A stretch of 64,000 bases of DNA, taken from Blastocatellia bacterium (GTDB taxonomy: Bacteria > Acidobacteriota > Blastocatellia > Chloracidobacteriales > Chloracidobacteriaceae). A model generated the notes under the pieces. The model did not search any database. It saw nothing but the letters and a program-made list of their open reading frames with translations, and was not told the DNA's origin. The position numbers and the translations under genes were made by a program. Positions 1,729-62,272 of this stretch are shown here, one piece after another; the first letter of the stretch is position 1, and the number at the start of each line of letters is the position of its first letter. The stretch lies in assembly GCA_019695185.1 (NCBI GenBank), contig JAIBAN010000027.1:1-64000 (forward strand), written 5' to 3'.

Positions 1729-1832
1729 GAAAGTCTCGAGATTTCCGGGAGTTTTGAGGGGCAAAGTACCTTTTGTCACCCTTTCACGCCTGTACCCTTT
1801 CACCCCTTGGACTTCCCAGACTTTCAGGTCTT
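1729..1832. repeat. Paired inverted short-unit arrays, GAGTCT family
   Basis: The gap between two leftward genes holds a degenerate arm (about 1729-1757, AGTCTCGAGATTTCCGGGAG) and an inverted arm (about 1803-1832, GGACTTCCCAGACTTTC). Between them are CACCCTTTCAC-like units at 1776-1806. The same design (GACTCC arms with a TCACC-rich centre) recurs at 20365-20508 and 25998-26123. Confidence 0.65.
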
Positions 1833-1838
1833 GCCCTT

Positions 1839-3443
1839 CTATCTGACTTGAATGGGATGCTCTTCCAAAAACTCCTGCAAGCGCTCAATCCGTTTTTCAA
1901 AAACCAGATTTTTGATTTCCTGGATTAAATCCAACTCGCCCAACTCGGCCAATAAGACATTGACCTGCCACATCTTGCGTTGGCGTTCCTTGCGTGACTG
2001 TTTTTTTCCTTCCGAATTGGAGTTGCTGTACCAGTCTTCAATGGTTGCCTGTTTGAATAGAAACTGCTGGCGTTTCAAGTCATCAATCAATTCATGAAGA
2101 GCCAATAGGCGGTGTTCATTCTGGTCAGTAACCTGTTCCAACTGTCTGGTGGTGGTCTGATATTCCTGGAAGCGCTCCAAAATCCGTTCGGCCAGCCAGA
2201 GTTTGAGCCCGGCTGCAGCCGCCACATCGCTGGGGGAAGCCAGATAGTACAAGTCCAGACTGGTCATCCCAATGGCGAACAGTTTCTTGATGGTGCCCTG
2301 CCCCACACCTTTGACCTGTTTGAGCAGCGAGTTGATGATGATTCCTTCAGGCGAATCGGTCGTTTCGGGAATGCCAAAGGTTTGCGGCAGAAGTTCTTCC
2401 AAGTCAGCGTAGGATTTGAGGAGTTTGGCCTGCCAGTTGATTTTGATGGCCCGGTTGTCCGGTTCATTTTGAGCACTGGCCAGCAATTCATCAAAGTTCC
2501 GCAGCAACCGGCTCAGTTCGTAATATTCCATTGATTCAGAGGCACGGGCAATGCTCTGCACTGCCGGTCGGCAGATTTCCAACCACTCTTTGGAAACCTT
2601 GCCGCGCCGCAGTTCTGCCATAAATTCCTTGACCGGTTGCACATAGGCAGCGGCAATATTGGCAAACAGGTCTTTCAGGTCATCCGGGGTCTGGATGGCA
2701 AACTCACCTGTTGGCGGGCTGGTGGGAACACTGGCCAGCATGTCGGCGGCCTGCACTTCTGACAGCTCATGATCAAAGGTGCCGGTTGAAAACCCAATAA
2801 AACTGTTTTCTTCTTTGAGCGCTGTATCAAAAGCGTCATCCAGCCCGCCAATCACATCCTCAAAAAAGTCTTCGCCCAGAGCCAGTTCGTCAAAGGGGTC
2901 ATCATCGACAGCAAAAAGTGGTTCCTGGGGTTCCGGGCTTGGGGCAGGTGCCAGGGTTGAAGGTCCCTGGGCAACTGAAGCCGATATCGAACCTTGACTT
3001 AGCAGCTCCCGCAAATGGTGGGTGATACGGTGAATCTGCGTCAAATCAAAGGGAACTTCCAGGTTGTTCAGGCTTTTCACCACGCCTTCAAAACAAGAAG
3101 TGGCATGCGTCGAGGCTTCCAGCACTTCTGTTGGATTGGAAACCTGTTGGGTAGCCAGACGCAAGGCTGAATATTGCAGCAATTCAGCCAAGTCAGAGAG
3201 TCCCTCCACACTGGCTGCCAAATGAAACGTTGCCCAAGGCACCAGCTCACCATCCATGGTGTAGAGGCTTTTTCTCAACACATACACCGCTTCGTTGATT
3301 TCTTCGCTATGCTGGCAGATGGCTTCACAATAAGTCGCCGCCTTCCCCGGAGACCGGCGCAACCGGTCAAAGTAGAGCTTGAGCAAAGTGGTGCTGTCTT
3401 CAATATTGACGATAAACGTTTCGATTGTATTGAGTTGATCCAT
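1839..3443 (-). CDS. Helix-hairpin-helix protein of unknown function
   Basis: The protein has 534 residues from the chosen start (MDQLNTIETF). An upstream in-frame ATG at 3512 would add 23 unconvincing residues. The N-terminal 160 residues are helical. Residues about 160-260 form an acidic, Pro-rich linker. Residues about 373-426 form a helix-hairpin-helix module with the signature VKGVGQGTIKKLFAIG. A charged, probably coiled-coil C-terminus follows. HhH modules often bind DNA without sequence specificity but also serve as protein-interaction folds, so the role is open. A second protein of similar architecture lies at 42497-43942. Both sit in leftward clusters near regulatory genes. Confidence 0.75.
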   Translation of the reverse strand: MDQLNTIETFIVNIEDSTTLLKLYFDRLRRSPGKAATYCEAICQHSEEINEAVYVLRKSLYTMDGELVPWATFHLAASVEGLSDLAELLQYSALRLATQQVSNPTEVLEASTHATSCFEGVVKSLNNLEVPFDLTQIHRITHHLRELLSQGSISASVAQGPSTLAPAPSPEPQEPLFAVDDDPFDELALGEDFFEDVIGGLDDAFDTALKEENSFIGFSTGTFDHELSEVQAADMLASVPTSPPTGEFAIQTPDDLKDLFANIAAAYVQPVKEFMAELRRGKVSKEWLEICRPAVQSIARASESMEYYELSRLLRNFDELLASAQNEPDNRAIKINWQAKLLKSYADLEELLPQTFGIPETTDSPEGIIINSLLKQVKGVGQGTIKKLFAIGMTSLDLYYLASPSDVAAAAGLKLWLAERILERFQEYQTTTRQLEQVTDQNEHRLLALHELIDDLKRQQFLFKQATIEDWYSNSNSEGKKQSRKERQRKMWQVNVLLAELGELDLIQEIKNLVFEKRIERLQEFLEEHPIQVR

Positions 3444-3652
3444 AGCGACCCGGAAGGCAAGCCTACCCAAACAGTTTGTTTTTGAAGCAGTTGGACGCCA
3501 GACAAGGCACACATGCAGCGGTTTCTGAAACCGGTCCCGAAAGCATAAATGACAAGGGAAACAGCTAGTTGGAAAAGCGGGAAAGCAATGTCCGGACAGA
3601 TTCGCACTCTAGCACAGGTTGCTTGCAATTGTGGAGCGGATTTGAATTTTCC

Positions 3653-3806
3653 AGGACTGAGCGCCGAGGACGAGGAACAGAGGATTATGTGACGGCTGAG
3701 GACTGAGTTTTGGGCAGGTGGGAACAAACATTTCAGCCTGTGCGTGGACGGCGGATGGGACAGGCGGTCTTTTAAACTCAGTCCTCAGTCCTCAATTCTC
3801 AGTCCT
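3653..3806. repeat. Paired inverted heptad arrays, GGACTGA family
   Basis: The left part (3653-3710) contains GGACTGA-like units, ending in GAGGACTGAGTTT. The right arm (3775-3806) contains TCAGTCC units plus one TCAATTC unit. The first heptad of the right arm supplies the TGA stop codon of the leftward gene at 3799 (codons GAC TGA). The 3444-3652 stretch next to it holds no gene that I can see. Confidence 0.85.
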
Positions 3807-5145: not shown

Positions 5146-5164
5146 AGTCTTTCCCTTTTGTCTG

Positions 5165-5304
5165 AATTGAGAATTGAGAATTGAGAATTGAGAATTTTGG
5201 AACTGAGAAATCAATCAAGCTGAGGTAGTGATCTTCAGCCAAAATCAATTCGGTCAACAATCACCCCATCTTGAGTTCTCAATTCCCAATGCTCAATTCT
5301 CAAG
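5165..5304. repeat. Paired inverted heptad arrays, GAATTGA family
   Basis: The left arm (5165-5196) has about four GAATTGA units and the right arm (5271-5304) has three degenerate TCAATTC units. They flank about 75 nt of unique sequence. The TGA stop of the upstream V4R gene is directly followed by the GAATTGA unit on its coding strand. Confidence 0.9.
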
Positions 5305-5938
5305 ATTGGTTGTTTTGTTGCAGGATCCGCAGAATGGACTCATAGGATGCCCCTTGGGCCTGCAAATTCCGTACTGATTCAATCATTGGGGCCCCTCCCT
5401 GTAAAAATCGGCAGGAGGAAGCTCCATGCGCCAGACAGAACAATTCAATACATTCCAGATGGGTTCCTGACAGACGCGAAAAAATCCCCGCAAAAATCCC
5501 GGCAAACACATGGTCGGCTGGTTCCTGAGTTTCACCCAGCATCTGAGCTATCGGGGAATTATAAAGGTTGATGAATATCTGGCCATGTGCCTGAACCAGT
5601 TCCACATGTCCCCAACCACGTTCGGCCCAAATCTCGTCGCAGGTTTTGACAAAATCCCGGACGGAAAGTTCTGCAATACTGCGGATTCCAGGACGCCGCA
5701 TCTCAATCCGTGCAGCAATCGGGCTGAAAAGCTGTTCGCCCCAGGACCGGCCAAAACTGTAGAGCATCTCGGCGGCTTTGGGTCCCCACTGGTCCCGAAA
5801 AGCGGTGTGCAACGCCCGGACCGGGTCTTCCGTCATGAGAAACACCCGTTCGTGACGATGGTCGTGGAGCATTCCGCGCTCCTGGTCACGCTTCAAATGT
5901 TCGATGGAGAGTGGGGTTTGAGTCAAAAATGAGTTCAT
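5300..5938 (-). CDS. V4R-domain protein
   Basis: The protein has 212 residues from MNSFLTQTPL. Upstream in-frame codons to 6040 overlap the purF stop region and are not convincing. The C-terminal half follows the V4R ligand-binding pattern: HVFAGIFAGIFSRLSG, then ECIELFCLAHGASSCRFL with both conserved cysteines. V4R domains occur in BchJ-type proteins and in regulators that sense hydrocarbons, and they are thought to bind small molecules. No DNA-binding or catalytic partner domain is fused. It is paralogous to 4486-5145 and co-oriented with it, which suggests a paired or heteromeric function. Confidence 0.7.
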   Translation of the reverse strand: MNSFLTQTPLSIEHLKRDQERGMLHDHRHERVFLMTEDPVRALHTAFRDQWGPKAAEMLYSFGRSWGEQLFSPIAARIEMRRPGIRSIAELSVRDFVKTCDEIWAERGWGHVELVQAHGQIFINLYNSPIAQMLGETQEPADHVFAGIFAGIFSRLSGTHLECIELFCLAHGASSCRFLQGGAPMIESVRNLQAQGASYESILRILQQNNQS

Positions 5939-6040
5939 AAAATCTGTATGTCGGCGATTTGAGGCTGTGGGTTGGGACCGGATGATATTACAAAAACAGA
6001 TGGGGAGGGAACACCTCACAACCAATTCGGTACCCGGCAA

Positions 6041-7426
6041 TCAACTTACATCCGGACGCTGGTGGGGAACTTCCAGCGGGTATCGCCCTGTGTAACAGGC
6101 GGTACAAAAATGCAGACCTTCATCGGCTCCGCACGCCAACAGCAAACCCTCATGACTCAGGTACCCCAAACTGTCAGCATTGATGAAGGTCCGGATTTCC
6201 TCAAGTGTCGAGTTGGCAGCAATCAATTCCTTATGAGTCGGTGTGTCCACCCCGTAATAGCAGGGTGAAATTGTGGGCGGACAACTGATTCGCAGGTGAA
6301 CTTCGGTTGCACCGGCCCGCCGCACCATTTCGACAATCTTGCGGCTGGTGGTTCCCCGCACAATTGAATCATCCACCAGAATCACCCGCTTCCCCTCAAT
6401 CAAATCACGCACGGGATTCAATTTGACCTTGACGCCGAAATGGCGAATTGACTGTTGTGGTTCAATAAAGGTGCGTCCCACATAATGATTGCGGACCAAG
6501 CCAAAACGGAAATTGATTTTTGACTGGGAAGAATATCCAATTGCGGCAGCCACTCCCGAGTCAGGAATGGGAACCACAATGTCGGCTTCAACCGGATGCT
6601 CCAATGCCAGCCGTTTCCCCATTTTGTGACGGCTTTTATTGACACTGCGGCCAAAAACCCGGCTGTCAGGCCGTGAAAAATAGACATGCTCAAAGATACA
6701 ATAGGCTGATTCGCGGGCCGGCAGGGGAAATTCCGTATGCAGACCGTCTTTGTCAACCACAATCACCTCTCCCGGCTGGACCTCCCGCACATAGGTGGCT
6801 CCAATCAGGTCAAAAGCACAGGTTTCCGAGGCTATCACCCAACGTCCGTCAAGTTCACCCAGGCACATCGGGCGAAAACCCCGCACATCCCGCACCGCAA
6901 TCAGACCTTCGGGCGTCAAAATTAAAATTGAATAGGCTCCCTCAATCGTCCGAAAGGTTTCAACCACTGCGGTATAAAGTGAATCACAGCGGGAGCGGGC
7001 CAGTTTATGGAGGACCACTTCCGTGTCACTGGTGGATGAAAAAATCGCCCCCTCGGCTTCCAGTTCTTTCCGCAAGGCATCAGCAAAGGGAAGGTTTCCA
7101 TTGTGGCAGATGGCGATTTCGCCCCGATGGCATTTGATCGAAAAGGGCTGGGCCTCGTTCAGACTGACATCGCCGGCGGTTGAATAACGGACATGGCCGA
7201 TAGCCGATGGTCCAGGTAACCGACGGAAAACCTCTTCGGTAAAAACCTCGCTGACATGACCCATTCCCCGCTCACTGAACAATTTTTTTCCATCGGTGGA
7301 AACAATGCCGGTTGACTCCTGTCCCCGATGTTGGAGGGAATAGAGGCCCAAATAGGTCAGGCGCGCCGCTTCGGGATGGTTCCAAATTCCAAAAACGCCG
7401 CACTCATCATGAAACTTATCAAACAT
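6041..7426 (-). CDS. purF: Amidophosphoribosyltransferase
   Basis: This enzyme performs the first committed step of purine synthesis: PRPP plus glutamine gives 5-phosphoribosylamine. The 461-residue length is normal. Cys9 (DECGVFGIW) is the glutaminase nucleophile after a short propeptide. The type-II glutaminase signature LQHRGQESTGI is present, and the PRPP loop VILVDDSIVRGTTS is at about residue 350. The C-terminal cysteines (ACGADEGLHFCTACYTGRYP) resemble those of the Bacillus-type [4Fe-4S] enzymes. No strong Shine-Dalgarno is visible. No other pur gene is nearby. Confidence 0.97.
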   Translation of the reverse strand: MFDKFHDECGVFGIWNHPEAARLTYLGLYSLQHRGQESTGIVSTDGKKLFSERGMGHVSEVFTEEVFRRLPGPSAIGHVRYSTAGDVSLNEAQPFSIKCHRGEIAICHNGNLPFADALRKELEAEGAIFSSTSDTEVVLHKLARSRCDSLYTAVVETFRTIEGAYSILILTPEGLIAVRDVRGFRPMCLGELDGRWVIASETCAFDLIGATYVREVQPGEVIVVDKDGLHTEFPLPARESAYCIFEHVYFSRPDSRVFGRSVNKSRHKMGKRLALEHPVEADIVVPIPDSGVAAAIGYSSQSKINFRFGLVRNHYVGRTFIEPQQSIRHFGVKVKLNPVRDLIEGKRVILVDDSIVRGTTSRKIVEMVRRAGATEVHLRISCPPTISPCYYGVDTPTHKELIAANSTLEEIRTFINADSLGYLSHEGLLLACGADEGLHFCTACYTGRYPLEVPHQRPDVS

Positions 7427-7448
7427 AGGATTGAGTTTGGGGGTTTGA

Positions 7449-7560
7449 ATTGCGGGTTTTGAGTTGCAGGCACGATTCTTTGCAATCTATTTGCCACTTC
7501 AGACCACACACCGCTTCGGTGGCTGCGCGTCAGAACTCAAAACTCACTTCTCAAAATTGA
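7449..7560. repeat. Paired inverted heptad arrays, TTTTGAG family (short)
   Basis: A short left arm (about 7449-7472, GCGGGTTTTGAGTTGC) faces a right arm (7531-7560, CAGAACTCAAAACTCAC plus TCTCAAAATTG). It lies between purF and the small gene at 7564, with the right arm directly after that gene's stop. Confidence 0.7.
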
Positions 7561-7748: not shown

Positions 7749-7880
7749 CTGGGTTCAGGAGTTCAGGGGTTCAGGGGTTTATGATTTATGATTTTTGATC
7801 TGAAGTCCAGTTTGTATCTGAAGGTTCCGGTCTTTGAAACTCTGAACCTAAACCCTGAGTCCTCGACCCTGAACCCAGAA
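7749..7880. repeat. Paired inverted heptad arrays, GGGTTCA family
   Basis: The left arm (7749-7780) has GGGTTCAGGAGTTCAGG-type units. The right arm (7837-7880) has TGAACCTAAACCCTGAG-type units. A second short motif, TTATGATTTATGATTTTTGAT, adjoins the left arm inside the spacer. The arms fill the gap between the 56-residue gene and the DUF6677 gene. Confidence 0.85.
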
Positions 7881-7887
7881 TTGATTC

Positions 7888-8306: not shown

Positions 8307-8434
8307 TTCAGGGTCTGGAGTTCAGGGTTCAGGGTTTTGTTTAAACCAGCTTTGAAGTAGTTGACCTTAATTTGACAACCTGTATTGCAACTTCTTGGGG
8401 TTGGTTTTTGCCCTTGGCCCCTGAACCCTGAACG
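8307..8434. repeat. Paired inverted heptad arrays, GGGTTCA family
   Basis: The left arm (8307-8338) reads CAGGGTCTGGAGTTCAGGG and onward. The right arm (8418-8434) reads CCCCTGAACCCTGAACG. The spacer is about 80 nt. The right arm starts 7 nt beyond the nrnA stop codon. Confidence 0.85.
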
Positions 8435-9973: not shown

Positions 9974-10128
9974 TAATTGAAAATTGAGAATTGAGAATTG
10001 AGAATTGAAGAAATTGGGCTTGAATTCGTTGAGGGTTGAAAATAATTCCACCTGCTGGCTTGGAACGACTTCACCCATTCAGTCTGAATCGCACAAGTTC
10101 TCAATTCTCAATTCTCAATTCTCAATTG
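9974..10128. repeat. Paired inverted heptad arrays, GAATTGA family
   Basis: The left arm (9974-10009) and right arm (10097-10128) each hold about four GAATTGA or TCAATTC units, in perfect inverted orientation around about 87 nt of unique sequence. This one lies inside the infB-rbfA operon. The infB stop TAA is followed directly by the array. Confidence 0.93.
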
Positions 10129-14586: not shown

Positions 14587-14675
14587 GTGAGGACTGCGGA
14601 CTGCGGACTGCGAATGAAAACGAGCTTTCAGGTTTCTTCCAGGATAACAAATTGTTTGCTCAGTCTTCAGTCCTT
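14587..14675. repeat. Paired inverted heptad arrays, GGACTGC/GGACTGA family
   Basis: The left arm (14587-14612) has three GGACTGC units. The right arm (14659-14675) has CAGTCTTCAGTCC. The rimP stop codon TGA lies within the right arm (codons GAC TGA). The spacer is only about 45 nt. Confidence 0.85.
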
Positions 14676-20363: not shown

Positions 20364-20364
20364 A

Positions 20365-20508
20365 GTCTGGGGAGTCTGGGGAGTCTTGAGAGTCTTGGGA
20401 GTCTGGGGAGTCTGGGGAGTCCAGGTGCCTTCCTTACCCTGTCACCCTATCACTCTGTCAGTTCTTTGACTCCCTAGACTCCCCAAACTCCCTAGACTCC
20501 CTAGACTG
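20365..20508. repeat. Paired inverted 10-nt arrays, GGAGTCTGGG family
   Basis: This gap is between converging genes. The left arm (20365-20421) has six GGGGAGTCTG-like units and the right arm (20467-20508) has four CTAGACTCCC-like units. The centre (20437-20460) holds TGTCACCCTATCACTCTGTC. From each of the two converging stop codons the array reads in the same G-rich orientation. Confidence 0.92.
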
Positions 20509-21422: not shown

Positions 21423-22391
21423 CTAAAATAAAACAGCCAGCGAGCCCTGGCGCTGCAAGGTGGGGCTTCCGACTGCTTCCAAAAGATCAAAGGTCCCGTT
21501 CGGGTTCTGCGCCGACAGGGCCGGTTTTCCATGTAAACCGGCAGTCACAGGATAGATGGCAGTTTTGGTCACCTGTTTGTTCTCAACCGTTGCCAGCAGC
21601 AAAACGGCCTCGGTTTCGGCGGTGCAGTCGCAATTGAAAGCCAGATTTCCCAATCCCCAGGCAATGGCGGTTTGCCCTTTGCGTTCAACCGGACCAATGG
21701 CATGGGTACCATGTGCAACCACAACGGAGGCACCAGCCCCGATTGCCACTTGTGCCGCCTGTTTCAATTCCGGTCGCGGAAGATAGGACGCCGGACCTGT
21801 GACGTGAAAGGTAGCCACCAAAAGGTCTCCCTGTTTCCGGGCGGCGGCCAGTTCTTCTTCCAGCTTTGGAGGAATACCACCAGTCAAATCGTGCGCGGTG
21901 AAAACCAGCTTCATTCCTGCACGTTCAAGGATTGCGGCTCCGGCAGGTCCGCCAATCGGGTGGAATCCAATTTTTTTCAAAACCGCAGCGGTCTGCTCCA
22001 GGCTGTTTGGGCCGTTGTCCAGGGCGTGATTATTGGCAATCCCCACCAACTCCACTCCGGCCTCATGCAAATTATTGAGGTTTGATTCGGAGTTCACGAG
22101 CTTCAACCCATTTTTCCCGGATGGGCTTTCTGCAATTGCACCTTCCAGATTGACAAACCCAATCCGTCCATCAGTCATGGGTTTCAACCGGGTCAAAATG
22201 TTTTTGGCGGATGTGGTTCCCAAATGGACATCACCGCCAAACCACAGTTCCAGTTTGGGGAAAACTGCTCTGACCGGCGGCTGGCTGGAACAACCAAACA
22301 GAAAAAAGAAACTGGCAAGGAAAAGTGCCGGGAGTCCGGCTTTCCAACGCTGGCTTCCTTTGCTTGGAAGGTTGCTCCTTGTGTGTTTCAT
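21423..22391 (-). CDS. CapA-like metallophosphatase-fold lipoprotein
   Basis: The 322-residue protein has a lipoprotein signal peptide with lipobox LFGC at about residue 34, so it is probably membrane-tethered outside the cytoplasm. The mature part matches the CapA/PgsA family (poly-gamma-glutamate capsule type) of calcineurin-like folds. The motifs are ELWFGGDVHLG, GFVNLEGAIAES, VGIANNHALDNG and VVAHGTHAIGPVER. No pgs/cap ligase genes are adjacent, so polyglutamate synthesis itself is not supported. Some relatives act in other envelope or lipid processes. Confidence 0.85.
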   Translation of the reverse strand: MKHTRSNLPSKGSQRWKAGLPALFLASFFFLFGCSSQPPVRAVFPKLELWFGGDVHLGTTSAKNILTRLKPMTDGRIGFVNLEGAIAESPSGKNGLKLVNSESNLNNLHEAGVELVGIANNHALDNGPNSLEQTAAVLKKIGFHPIGGPAGAAILERAGMKLVFTAHDLTGGIPPKLEEELAAARKQGDLLVATFHVTGPASYLPRPELKQAAQVAIGAGASVVVAHGTHAIGPVERKGQTAIAWGLGNLAFNCDCTAETEAVLLLATVENKQVTKTAIYPVTAGLHGKPALSAQNPNGTFDLLEAVGSPTLQRQGSLAVLF

Positions 22392-22420
22392 CCTACTTGG
22401 CCCAACCCAAAACTGATGTA

Positions 22421-22508
22421 TCCACGCAGAACACCAAGAAACACCAGGAAGGGCCTAAGAATTTTCGATTTTCTTGGTTTCCTTTGGGTTTCTTCGTGTC
22501 CTTCGCGG
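22421..22508. repeat. Paired inverted short-unit arrays, ACACCAAGAA family
   Basis: The left arm (22421-22454, CACGCAGAACACCAAGAAAC and onward) faces the right arm (22471-22508, TTCTTGGTTTCC and TTCTTCGTGTCC). Unit length is about 9-10 nt and less regular than in other gaps. It fills the gap between eno and the CapA-like gene. Confidence 0.75.
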
Positions 22509-22522
22509 ATAAAAGCAGAAAA

Positions 22523-23995
<1,473 letters not shown>

Positions 23996-23999
<4 letters not shown>

Positions 24000-25997: not shown

Positions 25998-26123
25998 GGT
26001 CTTGGGAGTCTTGAGAGTCTTGGGGGTCTTGGGGGTCCAAACATATCTGTCACCTTGTCACCTTGCCACCTTGTCAGAGTTTTGACTCCCAAGACTCCCA
26101 AGCCCCCAAGACGCCCAAGACTT
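25998..26123. repeat. Paired inverted 9-10-nt arrays, GTCTTGGGA family
   Basis: The left arm (25998-26038) has four GTCTTGGGAG-like units. The right arm (26083-26123) has four CTCCCAAGA-like units. The centre (26050-26075) holds four TGTCACCT-like units. The right arm runs directly into the stop codon of the leftward sigma-factor gene. Confidence 0.92.
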
Positions 26124-28477: not shown

Positions 28478-28562
28478 ATGCTGCTCCTTTTTGTAAATCT
28501 GTCAGGTAAAAATCCGTCTTTTACCTGCATCACGTTTGAGGAGTGCAAAAGGTTACAGGTTC

Positions 28563-28747
28563 GGAGTTCAGCCTTTAGGCTGCTGTTTGGAGTTCAGCCT
28601 TTAGGCTGCTGTTTGGAGTTCAGCCTTTAGGCTGCTGTTTGGAGTTCAGCCTTTAGGCTGCTGCTGCTGTATTTCCTGAAAATATCAAGAATATGAAACC
28701 CAGCCGCCTGAAGGCGGAACTCCAAACTGCCGCCTGAAGGCGGAACT
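28563..28747. repeat. 26-nt hairpin units in facing arrays
   Basis: Four tandem 26-nt units start at 28563, 28589, 28615 and 28641. Each has the hairpin CAGCCTTTAGGCTG followed by CTGTTTGGAGTT. About 50 nt further, two inverted units (about 28700-28747) carry the variant hairpin CCGCCTGAAGGCGG. The stem differs from the first set by paired changes (A-T to C-G). The array abuts the stop of the leftward AarF gene. Relatives lie at 31596-31666. Confidence 0.92.
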
Positions 28748-31590: not shown

Positions 31591-31595
31591 GTGCT

Positions 31596-34800: not shown

Positions 34801-35851
34801 CTACACGGAGGATGGCGGTGCCAGTTGGCGTGAATACCGGGCCAGCCGGACCCTGGGCAGCAGCACCTATGCCACGGCCTTTGACCCGGCCCTTGGGTAT
34901 GACCGCAACGGTTCGCTTTTTGTGACCTATGCCCTCGCCAACGTGACCGACAACTCTTCCGCTGTGGCCATCGCCAGCAAGGGACTCGACCGGCTCACCT
35001 TCAGTCCGGCGGTGGCGCTGGCCAGTTACAGCCACGCTGAACAAACCTTGCCCAGTCGCACGGCACTCGCCATTGAGGGAAGCAAAATTGTTGCCGTCTG
35101 GGAAAGTCTCAGCGGCGGCAGCCAGACCAGCCGCATCCATGCCATGACACTCGCTCCCCGGCGTTCCGTGGTGGTGGCCGAAGGTGGCGTCTCTCAGCCC
35201 ACCGTGACCGTCACTCCCGAAGGCCGGATTGTGGTTGGCTGGAACGACTGGGCGAATCGCCAGTTGAAGGTGGCCACCAGCCTGGACAATTCAACCTACA
35301 GCGACCCGGTGACCGTGGCGGAAACCGGCATCGGGTACGGACACCGGATTCCAGCCCTGGCCGATGTGCTGGCCCTTTCAGGTTTTTCCATCAAGGCCGA
35401 CCCGACCGGCAACGGAAGGCTCTATGCCTGCTTCACGAGTCTCGGAAACGGTCTGGATGTGTTTCTCAGCCGTTCATCCGACAACGGCAAAACCTGGGAC
35501 AGCCCCGCCCTGGTGAATGACGACAAGAGCGACGCCAACCAGTTCAATCCGGCTTTGGCCGTCGATGCCAGCGGCAACGTAGCGATTAGCTTCTGCGACA
35601 CCCGGCTGGACGGCACCGGCTCCACCACCCATGTCTTTCTGGCTCGTTCCCGGAATTCAGGAGTCAGCTTTGAACCCAACGAACAGGTCACGACAGAAGC
35701 CTCCAATACCTCCGCCTCCAGAATAACCCGCATCCGGGGAGCAAACCTCGGCGAACGCATGGGGATTGCGCCAGCCGCCAAAAGTGGATGGATACTCGTC
35801 TGGACCGACACCCGGCTCGGCAGCGAGGATATTTTCCTCACGACCAAATAG
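31841..35851 (+). CDS. Large exported beta-helix / Ig-like / BNR-repeat protein
   Basis: The 1336-residue protein has a signal anchor at about residues 27-48 (LRWLAACVLVLLAYTAWNI). A choice-of-anchor-like beta-sandwich (about 55-260) follows. A CSLREA-like segment (SGPGSLRDAIANVC) leads into a right-handed parallel beta-helix (about 285-560) with 28-residue repeats LTNCTISNNSAS. Ig/PKD-like stretches (about 690-770) and a C-terminal sialidase-type BNR region (about 950-1336, SRSSDNGKTWDSPALV) complete it. It is probably a secreted or surface protein for adhesion or polysaccharide contact. A heptad array is translated at about residues 921-949. An alternative start is 31892. The gene is divergent from the LytTR regulator. 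Confidence 0.85.
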   Translation: MRQTSSSFQQKSKKSFSMRLFHFPARLRWLAACVLVLLAYTAWNIQRPVPVAAAGTISLTTIGATYSQDFNSLSNSSPSSTVPIGWDFVETGGLADGSYAADDGSLPSGDTYSYGSTGASDRAFGTLRQDGFTSSVIGASFTNNTGNTIVGLNIAYTGKQWRLGTTGRVDRLNFEYSLDASSLSTGTWTPVTALNFTAPLTTGLIGAKDGNAGGNRTAIASAISGLSIANGATFWIRWTDFDATGAEDGLAVDDFSLTPSTCTQTVTNGNDSGPGSLRDAIANVCTGGLITFQAGVTTVNLTSTQLFINKTLTIDGGVSGVTVTRMVGSPNFRIFLVNSGTAAVLRNLTVSNGNLSSGTGGGFLVGGTLMLTNCTISNNSAPFGNGGGLNCNSSSMVTLTNCTISNNSASGGSGGGLNCNSGSTATLTNCTVSNNSASSGTGGGLYCNSGSTVTLTNCTVSNNSASPGGGGGLNNIGTPTLNNTIVAQNTASNNSNIQGTVGGTSSFNLIGVGGTGGLTNGVNGNQVGVAAPGLGTLGLNGGATPTVPLLAGSPAIDAGTATGAPATDQRGFGRAGATDIGAFEFNGSDPGTTVISINRNGAAILCGGTSVSWTVTFAAPVTGVASSNFALANSGLTGPAITGVTGSGNQWTVMANVGTGPGNLGLNMVNSSGVVPIVSNLPFTGQVFSVGSSLTVTAGSNSPLVAGATLNLTATPGGAGTFTFAWTGPGGFTSSQQNPSLSNVTAANSGTYTVTMTETGSGCTGMASTQVALELSGSVGLGVGSTNYTGGTPPVNPANPSYGTFLINTTLTNTSGGTLQAPLFFRVTILEKVPVVPSDPMPYWLDSRDAGSPPDVGAVQTVAAPLANNASTPVTFRVAVAQSNRATFRLFVDFFGATNTSPVVRKIGGFELTPQFPVQNLSSENSQPSILSPQFGDDTQSSVLSPQSSLIGGAGLQSGSTVAVDPKEPRRMAVAANNYELGTVAVRYTEDGGASWREYRASRTLGSSTYATAFDPALGYDRNGSLFVTYALANVTDNSSAVAIASKGLDRLTFSPAVALASYSHAEQTLPSRTALAIEGSKIVAVWESLSGGSQTSRIHAMTLAPRRSVVVAEGGVSQPTVTVTPEGRIVVGWNDWANRQLKVATSLDNSTYSDPVTVAETGIGYGHRIPALADVLALSGFSIKADPTGNGRLYACFTSLGNGLDVFLSRSSDNGKTWDSPALVNDDKSDANQFNPALAVDASGNVAISFCDTRLDGTGSTTHVFLARSRNSGVSFEPNEQVTTEASNTSASRITRIRGANLGERMGIAPAAKSGWILVWTDTRLGSEDIFLTTK
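32951..33286 (+). repeat. Four near-identical 84-nt coding repeats
   Basis: Units start at 32951, 33035, 33119 and 33203, each opening CTGACCAACTGCACC and encoding 28 residues of beta-helix. Near-identity at DNA level, including third positions, points to recent tandem duplication or ongoing homogenisation, so copy number may vary between strains. Confidence 0.92.
34601..34688 (+). repeat. Heptad array translated inside the beta-helix protein
   Basis: Inside the reading frame, inverted-type units of the GAGAATT and TCAGTCC families run from 34601 to 34688, including four contiguous TCAGTCC units at 34657-34684. They encode a Ser/Pro/Gln-rich linker (SILSPQF, SSVLSPQSS) between the Ig-like and BNR regions. 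The heptad is not a multiple of three, yet the frame stays open. Confidence 0.93.
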
Positions 35852-39671: not shown

Positions 39672-39879
39672 TTCAGGGTTCAGGGTTCAGGGTTCAGGGT
39701 TCAGGGTCTGGGGTTCAGGGTCTGGGGTTTTTGAGAGGCAGAAGAAACCAGGCAGAATCGAAAACCGGATTTGAGATTGCGGATTGAGAATTGAGAATTG
39801 ACAACCAATTGAAACTTCAATTTTCGGCTCTTCGAAAACCCTGAACCCTGAACCCTAGACCCTGGACCCTGGACCCTGT
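39672..39879. repeat. Nested paired heptad arrays, GGGTTCA outside and GAATTGA inside
   Basis: The outer left arm (39672-39730) has six or more CAGGGTT units. The outer right arm (39834-39879) has CCCTGAA, then CCCTGGA units. Within the spacer lies a smaller pair: GAGAATTGAGAATTGA (about 39786-39802) facing CTTCAATTTTC (39818-39828). Two unit families are thus nested in one foldback. Confidence 0.9.
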
Positions 39880-41701: not shown

Positions 41702-41886
41702 AATTGAGAATTGAGAACTGAGCCTTGAGCCTTGAGCCTTGAGAATTGAGAATTGAGAATTGAGAATTGAGAATTGAGAATTGTACCAATCCCTGTCTTC
41801 AGGTTGAAATTGATTTTTTCCACAAACCTAAAGAATTTTGAACTGGTTTTATTAATTCTCAATTCTCAATTCTCAATTCTCAATTA
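41702..41886. repeat. Paired inverted heptad arrays, GAATTGA with GAGCCTT variant
   Basis: The left arm (41702-41783) has GAGAATT units, a block of three GAGCCTT units, then six more GAGAATT units. The right arm (41854-41886) has four TCAATTC units. The arms are unequal (about eleven units against four), showing that unit number changes independently on each side. Confidence 0.95.
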
Positions 41887-42359: not shown

Positions 42360-42370
42360 AGCCCTCCTTC

Positions 42371-42495
42371 ATTTGCCATTTGCCATTTGCCATTTGCCAG
42401 GGTTCATCGCATGTGGCGGATCCGCCACATTTTCCGGACCCAGTACAGTCCGGCCAGCAGTCAATGGCAAATCGCAAATCGCAAATCGCAAATGC
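42371..42495. repeat. Paired inverted heptad arrays, ATTTGCC family, with central palindrome
   Basis: The left arm (42371-42400) has four ATTTGCC units. The right arm (42464-42495) has GGCAAAT, then GCAAATC units. The spacer contains the perfect 20-nt palindrome ATGTGGCGGATCCGCCACAT (42411-42430) and a CCGGAC/GTCCGG pair just beyond it. Unlike other gaps, the two arms use slightly different units (ATTTGCC against ATTTGCG). Confidence 0.93.
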
Positions 42496-43954: not shown

Positions 43955-44055
43955 AGGACTGAGGACTGAGGACTGAGCCCACATCAACTGTTCTTTTGCA
44001 ATGATGAGGTGGAAATCCGTCGTAATGACGTGCTCGGCCCTCAGTCCTCAGTCCT
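43955..44055. repeat. Paired inverted heptad arrays, GGACTGA family
   Basis: The left arm (43955-43977) has three GGACTGA units. The right arm (44038-44055) has two TCAGTCC units. The spacer is about 60 nt and the arms pair perfectly over two units. Confidence 0.9.
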
Positions 44056-45095: not shown

Positions 45096-45283
45096 AGTTC
45101 AGGGTTCAGGATGCTGAATCCAGGGTTCAGGGTTCAGGGTTCAGGGTTCAGGGTTTCCATTTGGGAATTGGGAATTGGGGTTTGAGTATACCCCCGCTAG
45201 TATCGTCCCCAATTTCCGCTATGCGAAAACCCTGAACCCTGAACCCTGAACCCTGAACCCTGAACCCTGAGCTCTGAACCCTG
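45096..45283. repeat. Nested paired heptad arrays, GGGTTCA outside and GGGAATT inside
   Basis: The left arm (45096-45156) has about six GGGTTCA units. The right arm (45227-45283) has about seven TGAACCC units. An inner pair, GGGAATTGGGAATTGGGG (45163-45180) and CCCCAATTTCC (45207-45217), lies between. This is one of the longest near-perfect foldbacks in the window. Confidence 0.95.
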
Positions 45284-48349: not shown

Positions 48350-48382
48350 AATTGAGGACTGAGGACTGAGGACTGGGTACTG
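48350..48382. repeat. One-sided heptad array, GGACTGA family
   Basis: Three GGACTGA units preceded by one AATTGA follow the stop codon of 47058-48338, reading in the same sense as the gene. No good facing arm precedes the next start, only CCCAGGACTCAAACG at about 48480. Confidence 0.85.
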
Positions 48383-48494
48383 AAAACCGAGATTGCCCCA
48401 GAATTCTCGCGTAATCCGACAATTCCGGCTCCACACCAGGTTACCGAACCAAGCCGGTTTGAATCCAACCATCAAAACCCAGGACTCAAACGCA

Positions 48495-57892: not shown

Positions 57893-58090
57893 GAGTTCTG
57901 AATTCTGAGTTCTGAGTTCTGAGTTCTGAATTTTGAGTTTTGAGTTTTGAGTGAACCGGCGCGTCGTTTGCTTTTATATCCGGAAAAACAATGTTGGGTT
58001 CATTGGGTCAGGACAGCTTTTTATGGCGCTAAGACTAGCGCAGTTGGCTTCAAATTCAAAACTCAAAACTCAAAACTCAAAACTCAAAAC
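57893..58090. repeat. Paired inverted heptad arrays, TTTTGAG/GTTCTGA family
   Basis: The left arm (57893-57952) has five GAGTTCT or GAATTCT units, then three GAGTTTT units. The right arm (58051-58090) has five CAAAACT units and begins right at the TAG stop of the M36 gene. Only the TTTTGAG portion is shared by both arms. Confidence 0.94.
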
Positions 58091-61032
58091 TACTTCAGGC
58101 TGCCGCCGCTGACTTTCACATCGTCAAGGTACCATCCATCCCGTTGATTGAACGCATCACTCATCAGGCGAAAGCGGATTTTCAGCTTTTTGGTTCCATC
58201 AAACCGGGAAAGAGGAATCTGCACCGAGGTGAATTCCGGCTGGGTGTCGGAAAAAGCCGCCACCACCTGCCAGGGCTGACCAGCCCCGGTCTTGACTTCG
58301 ACCAAACCAAAATCAAACCCTTTTTCAATGTCAAACCGGTGGTTGAACGTCAAAACAGCTCCAATGGTCTCACTCAAATTGAAGCCCGGCCCTTGCAAAA
58401 TCAGATTGGCACGCGCCGGATAGTCTCCCTTGGGGCTGTCAGTCCATGAATGGGTGGGGCTTTTGGCAAAACGCGTCGTCAGTTCCCAGCCTGCTTTTGG
58501 TTTCCAGCGCTCGGCCCCGGTTTCAAAGGCATCTTCAAAGAGGGTGACCCGTTTTCCGGCTTTGATGCGGGCTGTCAAGGTCCCTCCGGTACCGGAATGG
58601 GTTACCGTGATGTCGCCCCCCAGAGCTGCCTGCACTACCCCGTCGTTTTTGGCTCCGGCGACTCCCACCCGAACCGGAATGGCTCCCTGAAACAGTCCTG
58701 GAATATTTTGGGTTTCCGCCACAGTCAGCAGTTCCTCATCCCCGGTGGTCGTAGTCACGACCACATTCATCGTTCCGGCCCCGGCCAGGGCAGCGGCTCC
58801 CACTGAAAACGTCAGCATTTCCCCATCAGCCACCAGCGCAGCGCCAAAGGTTACCCGCCCGGCATCGTCGGCAAAGGGCGGCAAGTCAAACGCCTGCCGG
58901 ACCGTCATCAGGCCCCCGCCAAACGCCTCGGCGGAAAAGCCCATGCCGCGCTTGGCAAAACCCCGCCAAATCAATGTCTGATTGGCTCCCTGGTTCAGTG
59001 CCCGGTCAGCCAGCAGCAGAGCGTCCCGCCCGTCAATCATGGAAGGTCCGGTCGGAGTCAGGGTGAGCGCGGTCAGAACCAGCCGTTCGATGGCGACCCG
59101 GCCCGGCTCGAAACCATACCGGGCAATGAAATTTGCCCGTACCTCCCACAAGGCGGAGCACCAGACTTCACCGACTTTATGAATCTGGGTCGGGTCGTCG
59201 GGGTATCTCGTCTGAGCCGGGTCAATATCGGCATAGGTCAACGGGTTGACCGTCATGTCCGTGCTGTAGGCAAAGCGGCGCAGCCCGCGTTCGAAGTTTT
59301 GCGAAACATAGCTTCCAAAAGGATAGGCTCCCCGCAGGTCGTCTTCCGGTTTGGTCAGAATCGAGAGCGCAAACCAGTCGGACCAGCCTTCACCCATGCC
59401 GGAACTTTGCAGCGGATTGAGGGCGGTGACATCCGCCGGACCTCCTACCAGCCGGTTGGTCAGGCCGTGGGTATATTCATGACAAATGATTTCGGCATCA
59501 TACGAGGTATCCAGCTTGGGCACGGCGCGGGTCCAGAAATAGAGGTTCATGCGACCCGACGCGCCGTCCTCAGAGGTGGCAAAAGCGGCATTATTGATGC
59601 GGGTCGTGTCCTGGACAATCACAATCACAGGGTCATTTCCCCGCCCGCCCAGGTTGAAATTATCCCGTTGAAAGTTTCCTGCCGCCTCATCAAAACCCAG
59701 CCGATAGAGGTAATCGTGCATGAAGTTGGTCCAGTAAAAAGCACTGGTTACAGCAGCAGATTCAAATTTTTCGGGTTCTTGAAGCGGGTCCCGCAACACC
59801 AGCGGGAAAGAAAAGTCGAGGGTTTCCGAAACCGGCTGAAACCCGTTCTGCTCACTCCCAGTCTGGCTTTTCAAGGCCCGGACGTTGTTCCCTTCGGTGG
59901 TCTTGCGGGCGAGGTCAACCCAACCGGCAGGCGATGCCGCCGGGTCCCCCGATAGTGAACGCGCCGCACGGGTGGTGAGCGCCGGAGTTCCTCCCGTCCG
60001 GGGCAGGTTTGGCTGCGGCGTGAGGCTGAAGACCTGCGCCATCGGCGTTTCATTTGCCACTTCCCACGTGTGATTTGTCATTGAAGTGACAACCGGAACT
60101 TCCGGAATCGAATTGGCTGAACTCTGCTTTCCCTGAATCCTGAACCCTGAACCCTGAACCCTGGATTCAGCGGAATACCAAGTGAGATTCCACTTGCGTA
60201 ACACTTCCCCACGTTCCGCATCCACATACATCCGCCAGACATCGGGAGTTCCCCAGGGCTGAAGAGTCACCTCCCACGCCGGTCGGAGGATTTCACGGGA
60301 AAACGGAACCCAGACAAACCGGGATTTCAAAGGAACCTGCAACTCCGCCACAGTTTCCAGGCCGCATGCCTGCAAGGCCAGCCGGTGGGCAGCCGACGCA
60401 TCAATCCGGTGCGGAGCCTGGACCGAACCGGCGGAAACTTCCGGCGCGTAGATTTCGCCTGCCACCGAAAGCAGTTCTCCGTTCAGAAAAGCCGCTTTCA
60501 ACCCGCCCCCGACTATCGGAGCGCCGGCATAGGACTGGTCCAACCGGAGATGGGTCAGGCCGGTTCCAGGCGTCTGAAATGAATGCACCACGGTCAGTTC
60601 GGTCGCCTGTCTGGCTCCGGACGGATTCCATAAATCGGCATGTTCGGCCACAAAACTCCGGACTGTTGTTTCCGGATGCTGCCGGGACTGACCAAACGTC
60701 AATGTTCCGGTTTCAGCATAGACATACCGGGCGGTTCCGGTGCGGGGACTCCAGCGCACCTGAGCCTGCGGCAAGGAGCGGTGCAAGCGCTCCAGCGCAG
60801 CCTGCTGGCGGGGTTGTTCCGCCTCGCTGGCCTGGACTGCCGCTGTCATCCGGAGCGTTTCACCATCAGGCAGCGCAGCTTCCATCATCAGACCGGCTGA
60901 CGGACCTGACGTTTCCTGAGCCCGTCCCCGCAGCAGGCTTCCGGTCGAAACCAGAACTGCCACCGCCAACAACCACAAACCGAACCGGAACAGACGCCGG
61001 TTTCCCCAACGAAATTGTGACCGAAACAACAT
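58090..61032 (-). CDS. M36 (fungalysin-type) metallopeptidase, exported
   Basis: The 980-residue protein has a signal anchor (about 15-35, FGLWLLAVAVLVSTGSLL) and a fungalysin/thermolysin propeptide region (about 50-270). The peptidase domain carries the zinc motif ICHEYTHGLTNRLVGGPADV (about 513-532, His-Glu-x-x-His with the fungalysin NRLVGG continuation) and the third ligand in GMGEGWSDWFA. A C-terminal beta-sandwich (about 850-980) resembles a carbohydrate- or protein-binding module. It probably acts outside the cell on proteins. About 15 residues between propeptide and peptidase ([12 protein letters not shown]) are translated heptad repeat. Confidence 0.93.
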   Translation of the reverse strand: MLFRSQFRWGNRRLFRFGLWLLAVAVLVSTGSLLRGRAQETSGPSAGLMMEAALPDGETLRMTAAVQASEAEQPRQQAALERLHRSLPQAQVRWSPRTGTARYVYAETGTLTFGQSRQHPETTVRSFVAEHADLWNPSGARQATELTVVHSFQTPGTGLTHLRLDQSYAGAPIVGGGLKAAFLNGELLSVAGEIYAPEVSAGSVQAPHRIDASAAHRLALQACGLETVAELQVPLKSRFVWVPFSREILRPAWEVTLQPWGTPDVWRMYVDAERGEVLRKWNLTWYSAESRVQGSGFRIQGKQSSANSIPEVPVVTSMTNHTWEVANETPMAQVFSLTPQPNLPRTGGTPALTTRAARSLSGDPAASPAGWVDLARKTTEGNNVRALKSQTGSEQNGFQPVSETLDFSFPLVLRDPLQEPEKFESAAVTSAFYWTNFMHDYLYRLGFDEAAGNFQRDNFNLGGRGNDPVIVIVQDTTRINNAAFATSEDGASGRMNLYFWTRAVPKLDTSYDAEIICHEYTHGLTNRLVGGPADVTALNPLQSSGMGEGWSDWFALSILTKPEDDLRGAYPFGSYVSQNFERGLRRFAYSTDMTVNPLTYADIDPAQTRYPDDPTQIHKVGEVWCSALWEVRANFIARYGFEPGRVAIERLVLTALTLTPTGPSMIDGRDALLLADRALNQGANQTLIWRGFAKRGMGFSAEAFGGGLMTVRQAFDLPPFADDAGRVTFGAALVADGEMLTFSVGAAALAGAGTMNVVVTTTTGDEELLTVAETQNIPGLFQGAIPVRVGVAGAKNDGVVQAALGGDITVTHSGTGGTLTARIKAGKRVTLFEDAFETGAERWKPKAGWELTTRFAKSPTHSWTDSPKGDYPARANLILQGPGFNLSETIGAVLTFNHRFDIEKGFDFGLVEVKTGAGQPWQVVAAFSDTQPEFTSVQIPLSRFDGTKKLKIRFRLMSDAFNQRDGWYLDDVKVSGGSLK
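60131..60170 (-). repeat. Heptad array translated inside the M36 peptidase
   Basis: Five CCCTGAA-type units (plus strand) lie in frame within the peptidase gene and encode [12 protein letters not shown] at about residues 288-300, at the propeptide-peptidase junction. The frame is kept although the unit is 7 nt. Confidence 0.92.
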
Positions 61033-61151
61033 ACTGACAAACTTTCCAGGTTTGGACTTTCGGAAAAAGTCCGGGTTATGCCTTCAGGCAGGAAAACCAC
61101 ATTGAACCAAACTCTCTCTGGTTTTTCACGCCGGAAGGAGAACTCTACCCC

Positions 61152-61535
61152 CTAGGCTTGCAGTTCCGCCAGCACCGGCGCGGGATTCCAATAGCCAACC
61201 AGCTTCTGAATTTTTCCGGACTCCTGAAAGGTAAACACATCAATCCCTTCAAATTGAACAGCCCGGCCATTTTTTCCCTGTCCTGTGGCCGACCATCTGA
61301 CAGCCACTTCAGCTCCAACGACAAACATGCTTTCCGCCTGCATGTGGACGGTTTCGAATCCGGCGCTGATGGCCAGAAAAAACTGGCGAATGGCTTCGGT
61401 TCCGTGCAAACCGGGACTGTTGGCCGGGTCGAAATGCGCGGCATCCTCGGCAAACGAACTGACAAACGCCTCAACGTCGAGCGCGCTGACAGCGGCAAAA
61501 TAGTTGATAACAGCTTGTTGCAACAGATCTGACAT
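61152..61535 (-). CDS. SnoaL/NTF2-like family protein
   Basis: The protein has 127 residues from MSDLLQQAVI (AAGGAG 8 nt upstream; a longer frame to 61622 lacks such support). The single NTF2-like fold has the helix VINYFAAVSALDVEAFVSSFAEDAAHFDP and strands such as AVRWSATGQGKNGRAVQFEGIDVFTF and GKIQKLVGYWNP. Such proteins are small hydrolases, isomerases or ligand binders. The ligand is unknown. It follows the SRPBCC gene by 31 nt. The 61033-61151 gap holds only the small hairpin GGACTTTCGGAAAAAGTCC. Confidence 0.82.
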   Translation of the reverse strand: MSDLLQQAVINYFAAVSALDVEAFVSSFAEDAAHFDPANSPGLHGTEAIRQFFLAISAGFETVHMQAESMFVVGAEVAVRWSATGQGKNGRAVQFEGIDVFTFQESGKIQKLVGYWNPAPVLAELQA

Positions 61536-61566
61536 GGGTTGTACTCCTTCTTTCATGGTCATTGTT

Positions 61567-62109
61567 TCATTTGCGAAGGTTATGAGGAAAGGTGGGTCCG
61601 GGCGGAGCCGGAATCCGGGCAAGTTCCTGGTGCGAATTGGCCCGCCGCCGGAGCAATTCCAGCTTGAGACTTTCTTCGCCCCGTGCCATGGCCCACTTGT
61701 GATTGGCCGAAAAAATTGGTTTCAACAGAAAGGAAAGCAGGCGCAGGATTGGTTTTTCCGCCCTGATGCTCCAATCGTAGGTAATCTCGGCAATGCTCCC
61801 GTTCTGAACCAGCGTCCAGACGCCCTGACCAACAAAGTCACCGATGGCTTCGAGGGAAAAGCCATGCGGAGCCTGCGACGTTGTGACCCGAAACGACCAG
61901 CGCAAGGTATACGGCAGCCAGCCTTTGGTGTAGAGGGAAACCAGTTTGCCGACTCCGTTCGGGTCGCCGGGTTCGAGCACGTTGACTTCAAGATAAACTG
62001 ACGGCCACCAAACCGACAGGGATTCAACATCACTGAGAATGTCGGAAACTTCCTGAATGGTTCCGGTGACACGCCAGTGCGTGGTGAAATGATAGTTGTT
62101 GCCAGCCAT
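61567..62109 (-). CDS. SRPBCC (START/polyketide-cyclase-like) protein
   Basis: The 180-residue protein has a helix-grip fold. It starts NNYHFTTHWRVTGTIQEVSDILSDVESLSVWWPSVY, with strands GKLVSLYTKGWLPYTLRWSFRV and GVWTLVQNGSIAEITYDW, and ends in a Pro/Arg-rich tail. The fold binds hydrophobic ligands, but none can be predicted. The start codon has no Shine-Dalgarno and is preceded by CAACTCCTC. It is probably co-transcribed with the downstream SnoaL-like gene. Confidence 0.8.
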   Translation of the reverse strand: MAGNNYHFTTHWRVTGTIQEVSDILSDVESLSVWWPSVYLEVNVLEPGDPNGVGKLVSLYTKGWLPYTLRWSFRVTTSQAPHGFSLEAIGDFVGQGVWTLVQNGSIAEITYDWSIRAEKPILRLLSFLLKPIFSANHKWAMARGEESLKLELLRRRANSHQELARIPAPPGPTFPHNLRK

Positions 62110-62113
62110 GAGG

Positions 62114-62272
62114 AGTTGAGAATTGAGAATTGAGAATTGAGAATTTGCTTTTCCTACGTCGGTACGTGCAATTGAAGATTGCTCATTGCTTCTGAATTTT
62201 TCGCTCCCAGCGAAAAAAAGGGAGGGGACTGAATTCCGGACTTCTCAATTCTCAATTCTCAATTCTCAATTC
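62114..62272. repeat. Paired inverted heptad arrays, GAATTGA family
   Basis: The left arm (62114-62147) has four GAATTGA units. The right arm (62242-62272) has four TCAATTC units. They pair almost perfectly around a spacer of about 95 nt. The left arm starts 5 nt from the SRPBCC start codon. Confidence 0.95.

Follow-up and report, generated by a model that had tools for sequence, protein, structure and literature searches.

In a stretch of 64,000 nucleotides from a Blastocatellia bacterium (Acidobacteriota; GenBank assembly GCA_019695185.1, contig JAIBAN010000027.1, our contig C151, hereafter the window) and in the genome to which it belongs, we found hairpin-forming elements that occupy about half of the intergenic gaps. 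In each, a spacer is flanked by two arrays of one short unit that face each other. We lean toward regarding them as miniature foldback-type repeat elements, which probably spread as self-copying DNA and sometimes replace a transcription stop signal. An earlier note, drawn from the letters of the window, had reported facing arrays in about twenty of its gaps. The window has 39 gaps of 60 bp or longer, and at a loose threshold (array inside the gap or at most 75 bp away) we indeed retrieve 20 of them, one of which, at 22557, owes its place to an array lying within a gene and probably due to chance; the wording that nearly every gap is filled was overstated. On the window, Tandem Repeats Finder (TRF) returned 47 rows, with period 7 in most, and the strict detector used alongside it returned 31 arrays, against 0 in each of the two first-order Markov shuffles that served as control. 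The array statistics are based on 1,885,643 bases (5,000 of them N), i.e., about 22% of the 8,329,599 bases and 222 contigs of the genome, partly chosen for long contigs. Within this sample, a short script of our own called 1326 genes, setting some starts wrongly, and an 834-kb subset was used for spacer lengths and for distances to stop and start codons. An assembly artefact is unlikely, since a pair is present in the complete chromosome of Desulfonema magnum (NZ_CP061800.1, locus L075) and the same element stands in the same gap of several separately assembled congeners.

The sample contains 807 short-unit arrays, 667 of which lie in gaps; the period is 7 in 634 of them and 9 in 110. When both strands are merged, the four commonest families, GGACTGA (186), GAATTGA (143), GGGTTCA (125), and GGGAGTCTT (59), make up 513 of the 807. 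The spacers measure 7 to 207 bp, mostly 30–114. For the comparison of arms, a gap of at most 400 bp counted as paired if its outermost arms were G-rich on the left and C-rich on the right. Both outer arms carry the identical unit in 135 of 190 such gaps (mean 33.5 and maximum 51 in 1000 permutations), and they agree within one base in 160 (mean 39.2, maximum 56). The earlier note had claimed this matching and had staked it on arms agreeing better within gaps than between gaps, which is what the permutations give. In the other 30 gaps, the arms are more than one base apart, so that mixed-family gaps are real. Below the level of the unit, the resemblance is slight: odd units common to both arms of one-family pairs number 32 for 25.0 expected (p 0.0095), and the copy numbers of the two arms correlate weakly (rho 0.17). 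In a methyltransferase loop of Prevotella, the arms are 35/36 identical in one species and have drifted in four of five, and the left arms of these four are closer to the left arms of other species than to their own right arms. The arms, then, start out matched and mostly drift afterward. These three observations do not support a strong continuous conversion between arms, and the slight sharing of odd units together with the drifted Prevotella arms means that matching arms do not by themselves require continuous copying. Matching arises at least partly because array, spacer, and array form one dispersed unit. The expectation of the earlier note that distant arms should drift separately is largely borne out below the unit level; as for its deduction that matching arms imply copying, dispersal of the whole unit explains part of the matching.

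The earlier note missed another feature, the polarity of the pairs. The G-rich arm is on the left in 204 gaps having both kinds of arm, and the opposite order occurs in 3; because the pair is an inverted repeat, either strand reads the G-rich arm first. With unfiltered pairing of neighbouring arrays, the left arm has more G than C in 22 of 26 unit families of this genome and less in 4, and GGACTGA is the sole family met in both orders (58 pairs G-first, 4 with the C-rich arm first). We also scanned several phyla, one genome per species, with the pattern GAATTGAGAATTGAG-N40-70-CTCAATTCTCAATTC, which itself imposes the G-first order for GAATTGA; one comparison sample consists of 15 genomes, each picked for already having a match. 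In the related genome G003, families not used as search pattern are G-first 10:0; in other phyla, 11 such families are G-first, none is C-first, and 2 are tied. Over 45 unit families from three samples, the left arm shows G>C in 39, keto>amino in 38, and purine>pyrimidine in only 35, and we accordingly discarded a purine-first formulation of the rule. The left arm has T>A in 16 families to 5 in this genome, and in 3 to 6 in other phyla. Two further candidates for the cause of the polarity were set aside. Stop codons supplied by the arrays do not account for it, as TGA is present in the G strand of GAATTGA, GGACTGA, and GAGTTTT and not in that of GGGTTCA. Nor does background strand skew, as gaps without arrays have no strong skew; in arrayless convergent gaps the sign is unchanged and the skew weaker (0.19 to -0.16).

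In the 834-kb subset, arrays adjoin stop codons at -20 to +12 bases, with 132 of 135 G-rich in the direction of the gene, and 69 of the 77 arrays near start codons are C-rich. Between 90 and 219 bp, an array is present in 188 of 392 co-oriented gaps, 48 of 96 convergent gaps, and 3 of 44 divergent gaps, and between 220 and 399 bp in 19 of 83 divergent gaps. Paired gaps fold strongly compared with dinucleotide shuffles (median z -6.4 when co-oriented and -7.4 when convergent), and for their spacers by themselves z is near zero (-0.5 and 0.0). Convergent gaps without arrays have structure as well, with a median z of -3.5 and 81% below -2, against 3% for divergent gaps. The arms agree within one base in 117 of 142 co-oriented, 39 of 41 convergent, and 4 of 7 divergent paired gaps (convergent against co-oriented, p 0.046). 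Canonical terminators per strand amount to 0.19 in convergent paired gaps, which is the divergent background (0.19), and to 0.34 in convergent gaps without arrays. The form of an intrinsic terminator, i.e., a short-loop GC-rich stem followed by a T run, is not that of the paired gaps, and their loops, mostly 30–114 nt, are long for intrinsic terminators; a search of the 64,000 bases of the window against Rfam gave 0 matches to known RNA families. A hairpin standing in for a terminator would explain the well-matched arms of convergent gaps. Selection for RNA pairing, which the earlier note had put forward, is thus supported between genes, and it cannot explain the translated in-frame copies described below.

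Once arrays were masked, a spacer homologue in another gap was found at E<0.01 for 61 of 207 paired gaps, against 0 after shuffling, and at E<1e-4 for 40, in a comparison that covers 22% of the genome. Single-array gaps (51/148) and arrayless gaps (130/532) have homologues too, the latter because of other repeats. Two spacer families align well: 11 gaps share GGGTTCA arms, and 10 others belong to the 9-nt GGGAGTCTT type. Among the latter, a single gap lacks the outer arms and starts at inner GTGACAA arrays. Members of the spacer families run in both directions on one contig. They are dispersed homologous copies with terminal inverted repeats, as in miniature inverted-repeat transposable elements (MITEs).

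The exact 21-mer of GAATTGA has 325 forward and 425 reverse placements in this genome (overlapping placements counted). It occurs in 9 of 58 genomes, these being relatives and this one. G001 and G003, members of the same family as our genome, have 21 and 7 placements, and seven 2.8–3.7-Mb genomes of genus g3 of that family have 0. The repertoire of G003 is different (CAGGGTT, ACTACTG, AGGGATG, AACCACT, and others) and its layout identical. One gene pair kept in order (48% and 51% identity) is separated here by 155 bp with a GAATTGA pair and in G003, of a related genus, by 20 bp. Conversely, a second kept pair (66% and 57% identity) is separated by 58 bp here and by 419 bp with nested arrays in G003. 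Also in G003, at about 6336–6754 of L120, an inverted repeat CATAAGCGCCAAGATAAGG lies within a GGGGTCA array, as though an element had inserted into a second one. The multi-phylum scan returned at least 71 loci, the complete Desulfonema magnum chromosome included; there, at L075:5295, a 37.6-copy AATTGAA array adjoins the paired GAATTGA element. Among the matches listed are Desulfobacterota, Acidobacteriota, Bacteroidales, Ruminococcaceae, Oscillospiraceae, relatives of Fibrobacter, a Roseilinea metagenome-assembled genome, and a few others. In one rumen Bacteroidales genome, the GAATTGA element stands full-length at six places; one congener has three such places and another has two. Arrays account for about half of the 78 letters of this element, and the similarity of the spacer between two loci scores 21, for a maximum of 14.5 in 1000 shuffles.

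At orthologous gaps, the elements are present in some relatives and absent from others. In a Bacteroidales genus, a gap of 139 bp with arrays in the query could be placed in 15 of 20 congener loci, the other 5 not being placed. Three of the 15 have the pair, one has a changed left unit and a degenerate right arm, two have the left arm only, three have no array (43–60 bp), and six have other inserts. The gap of L059 was placed in 19 of 20 congener loci. An array pair is present in 4 of the 19 and a canonical terminator (GAGTCAGCAGATTTGC...CTGACTTTTTT) in 8; another 4 have inverted repeats of other kinds, and the last 3 something else. Eight variants of this gap fold with z from -2.9 to -12.2. 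Copy number at one orthologous site differs, with 4.7 units against 10.7. In a congener, the 1123-bp gap of L288 holds a long insert, which may contain a reading frame and is bounded on both sides by an inverted repeat CGCCAAAGTGTCCCA / TGGGACACTTTGGCG, at a place where others have arrays. Finally, at the gap of L059, two congeners (L303 and L308) have the same flanking junctions and the same arms, and their spacers are exactly reverse-complemented over 45 of 45 bases. This is what an inversion between the arms, as evoked in the earlier note, would leave. However, the spacer is identical though the flanking genes differ by about 15%, so that a recent independent insertion or exchange is as possible as an inversion in place.

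Some copies are translated. Of the arrays of the main families, 31 of 588 lie in called genes in this genome, an upper figure since some probably reflect start errors (the array 41702–41783, counted in a gene, is probably one of them). We ran Pfam searches on 25 proteins in all. In a sensor kinase of contig C34, an in-frame facing pair breaks the response-regulator domain: the Pfam match ends at profile position 70/111, residue 1184, and the array begins at residue 1185. A 4182-aa synthase of C24 has its AMP-binding_C domain broken in the same way, with a match that ends at profile position 44/76, residue 3431, where the pair starts. In Prevotella, the pair of L118 is read through in a 581-aa open reading frame (ORF; 5725–7470), whose PF05958 (methyltransferase) match begins at residue 436, directly after the insert. 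We compared this loop at 50 loci from 150 genomes searched, namely the 30 best matches and 20 hand-chosen loci, 6 of which were picked because their listing hinted at an insert. The loop has 6 residues (18 bases) in 25 of these 50 loci and longer inserts in the other 25, and the frame is kept without a stop in all 50. Several of the inserts have tandem heptamers, and the units differ (e.g., AGCCAAC, TCAGCCA, GACATCA, CAAACCT). Two loci from Prevotella-group genomes, L204 and L233, share a palindromic piece CTTGCTACCGGAGGGACGCAAG nested in this loop. In-frame insertion into coding sequence, as in Rickettsia palindromic elements, is found for a minority of our arrays. Being translated in frame, the copies inside proteins have no terminator function.

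The miniature foldback reading that we prefer could operate as follows. The facing arrays, mostly of 7-nt and sometimes of 9-nt units, would act like terminal inverted repeats, and the whole array–spacer–array unit would be duplicated by a copying process. Units would be gained and lost through replication slippage, and recombination or template switching between the arms might invert the spacer. Copies would survive where sequence is dispensable, i.e., right after a stop codon, right before a ribosome site, or in protein loops, and an intergenic hairpin could substitute for an intrinsic terminator or another 3′ stem-loop. As for the polarity, we conjecture that it may come from intrastrand template switching, which would rewrite the 3′ arm from the 5′ arm, combined with G-U tolerance. 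RNA stems show an excess of G-C over C-G and of U-A over A-U pairs, explained by intrastrand template switches that follow the 5′ base (Monttinen and Loytynoja, PMC8794818). The G-first rule fits this expectation. The excess of T over A holds here and fails in other phyla, so that the template-switch account is only partly satisfied. More tentatively still, and with less confidence than the reading itself, one may imagine a widespread bacterial foldback class with a single plan, in which the G-rich arm is always 5′ and the units change freely. Its copying process would be common to several phyla and perhaps work without a transposase, replicative template switching both copying the arms and fixing the polarity, and its members would have been repeatedly exapted as transcription-end hairpins and protein loops.

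Several observations weigh against the miniature foldback reading. Within the 22% of the genome compared, 146 of 207 paired gaps (about 70%) have no spacer homologue. Two spacers were searched genome-wide: that of the gap between the IF-2 and RbfA genes (10009–10097) is single copy, and that of the GAATTGA pair 41702–41885 has one other copy, at C11:73333–73402, 88% identical over 64 bases. As a possible autonomous partner, we found 3 longer G..C array brackets in the same 22%, none with a transposase evident by eye. No target-site duplication was noticed in the aligned spacer families or at the congener gap loci, no systematic test having been made in either. The different single heptamers found at one methyltransferase loop across species look like growth in place and not like transposition. 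A further caveat is that the L303/L308 spacers are identical between diverged flanks. Moreover, the terminator deficit of paired gaps is small, with 14/37 against 31/57 in convergent gaps (p 0.14) and 19/121 against 71/285 in co-oriented gaps (p 0.050), both being weak tests.

The leading rival involves no mobility at all. Slippage would multiply a chance heptamer and intrastrand template switching would copy it across the gap, making or repairing the palindrome, with gaps and loops merely tolerant. The Prevotella loop, the uniqueness of most spacers, and the reversed L303/L308 spacer agree with it, and template switching has been reported to homogenise inverted arms and to invert spacers (PMC8604942, PMC8794818). 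Yet chance seeds would not give four families such dominance of the arrays, the spacer families of 11 and 10 gaps tell against it, and fine variants are hardly common to both arms. We consider it unlikely, albeit to be taken seriously. Less probable again is that the elements are selected RNA devices, bidirectional terminators or mRNA 3′ stem-loops whose arms are kept matched by selection on pairing. The scarcity of arrays in divergent gaps, the closer arm agreement in convergent ones, the structure of convergent gaps even without arrays, and the fact that 8 of 19 relatives have a canonical terminator at the orthologous site all point in this direction. Against it stand the copies translated within protein domains, the mostly 30–114-nt loops, and the unmatched arms of 30 of the 190 gaps; it also leaves the polarity unexplained, because a stem is equally stable whichever of its arms is the G-rich one.

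Two explanations taken from known repeats fare worse. Mobilisation of palindromes of the repetitive extragenic palindromic (REP) or bacterial interspersed mosaic element (BIME) type by a REP-associated tyrosine (RAYT, Y1) transposase would suit the gap preference, which is like that of REPs, and the genome of the window (G000) has 11 matches to Y1_Tnp (PF01797). We nevertheless find it very improbable, for two of the three RAYT loci examined have no array within about 1.5 kb and the third has one only in the neighbouring gene, relatives devoid of the GAATTGA 21-mer also have Y1_Tnp (e.g., G006, 11 matches), and the units form tandem arrays rather than 20–40-bp palindromes. Several RAYT-type Y1 transposase genes (PF01797) look intact and are probably tied to other palindromic repeats than the arrays. 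Hardly credible, finally, is the idea, put forward for GGGAATC in Xanthomonas and Nostoc, that the repeats are regulatory G-quadruplexes or i-motifs. The geometry and the position next to ORFs do match those of Rehm et al. 2015 (PMC4692102). However, the GGG run that makes a unit G4-capable, present in GGGTTCA and GGGAGTCTT, is absent from GAATTGA (143 of the 807 arrays) and GGACTGA (186), which have the same polarity, and this argues that the published explanation is not general; Rehm et al. themselves could identify no role in gene regulation.

In the window, a G-rich left arm and a C-rich right arm are paired in 9 gaps, and their units agree within one base in 9/9. Four more pairs, missed by the pairing rule, can be read in the sequence. 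These are a GAATTGA array (5164–5196) facing a TTCTCAA array (5276–5303) across a spacer; a GGGTTCA-type array (7751–7779) with a degenerate facing partner, seen by eye, near the right end of its gap (7751–7887 in all); a GAATTGA pair at 41702–41783 and 41854–41885; and a CATTTGC / GCAAATC pair (42370–42493, right arm from 42463), whose left arm has more C than G and makes an exception to the G-first rule. Further GAATTGA pairs stand at 9975–10008 / 10098–10127, between the IF-2 and RbfA genes, and at 62116–62145 / 62242–62273. The GGGTTCA unit forms a short pair of about two units per arm (8320–8336 / 8419–8433), a pair at 39672–39721 / 39837–39878 with a GAATTGA array (39783–39801) nested in its spacer, and a pair at 45097–45155 / 45228–45283 with an inner TTGGGAA array; a C-rich arm of this type, GACCCTG, lies at 23964–23997 in a gap whose left part is degenerate. 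A GGACTGA pair is found at 43955–43977 / 44039–44055, and the element at 57893–58091 has GAGTTCT/GAGTTTT on the left and AAAACTC on the right. Two elements have 9-nt units, namely the pair AGTCTGGGG / GACTCCCTA of a convergent gap (20364–20507) and a nested element (25999–26122) with outer arms GTCTTGGGA / GACTCCCAA and an inner TGTCACCT array at 26048–26076. Arrays of GGACTGC (14591–14612), CTCAGTC (30811–30840), and GGACTGA (48353–48383) are single according to the detector.

Two window arrays lie in genes rather than gaps. TCAGTCC arrays (34613–34687, plus strand) are translated within a 1336-aa beta-helix ORF (31841–35851), which also contains, at 32950–33261, an 84-nt tandem repeat of 3.7 copies with a 92% match. 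A GGGTTCA array (60131–60163, minus strand) is translated within a fungalysin-type (M36) peptidase gene (58090–60972). The gaps at 28559–28663 and 31595–31663 hold a second family of facing repeats, with 25–26-nt units around GAGTTCCGCCTTCAGGCGGC, a REP-like palindrome; both belong to a cluster of 20 gaps in a smaller sample. In the 1.89-Mb sample, the biggest group of related gaps has 39 members, 34 of which lack heptamer arrays. The gap 22391–22523, purine-rich on the left and pyrimidine-rich on the right in pieces of about 9 nt, looks like a facing-repeat family below the threshold of the detector.

If the miniature foldback reading is true, a large share of the intergenic DNA of some bacteria is one kind of self-copying hairpin, whose unit varies and whose plan and polarity are fixed. 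Such elements would offer a testable source of new terminators and protein loops, would let bacterial template switching be studied as a natural experiment, and would warn that conserved intergenic "RNA hairpins" can be products of DNA copying.

Several known systems share parts of this plan. REPs, palindromes of 20–40 bp, and BIMEs are intergenic inverted repeats of co-oriented and convergent gaps; unlike them, our elements have arms made of tandem arrays and variable spacers. The foldback transposons of eukaryotes (FB, Galileo) have long, internally repetitive terminal inverted repeats around a variable middle, and inverted ends of short tandem repeats with a variable middle are also met here, in elements that are, in contrast, much smaller, bacterial, and in which we found no transposase. 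The short tandemly repeated repetitive (STRR) sequences of filamentous cyanobacteria are 7-nt tandem units between genes.

Rickettsia palindromic elements (PMC10969869) are palindromes about 150 bp long that sit within protein genes and keep the frame; the passages of that paper on which we rely mention no heptamer-array ends, and here gaps are the main habitat. MacGregor 2015 (PMC4679880) described TAACTGA direct repeats in Beggiatoaceae, cyanobacteria, and Bacteroidetes and proposed a translational regulation. Like our arrays, they are intergenic heptamers near start and stop codons, patchy over phyla, with species differing in strength; unlike them, they are almost all direct, with 169 direct sets against one indirect in the main genome. 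The closest relatives are the repeats of Rehm et al. 2015 (PMC4692102), i.e., GGGAATC and GGGGA(C/T)T heptamers of Xanthomonas and Nostoc lying near ORFs and rarely between divergent genes. As two Xanthomonas genomes contain 70 and 75 pairs of GGGAATC arrays in convergent plus/minus orientation, the statement of the earlier note that no such paired arrays had been described was wrong. In the open-access literature (subscription journals and preprints lay outside this scope), we recognised no multi-unit, arm-matched, gap-filling, or in-frame version. Both systems have intergenic heptamer arrays next to ORFs, convergent pairs, and an under-representation between divergent genes, and the two convergent sites with the G-rich strand inward described by Rehm et al. 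are found here in 204 gaps against 3. The difference is that one G4-capable unit per organism group is used there, whereas many units, matched within each gap, coexist here in one genome; in addition, our elements include units without G runs, spacer families, nesting, in-frame copies in domains, and a reversed spacer. The paired-array plan is therefore already known with one unit in Xanthomonas, and the elements described here are a multi-unit variant of it.

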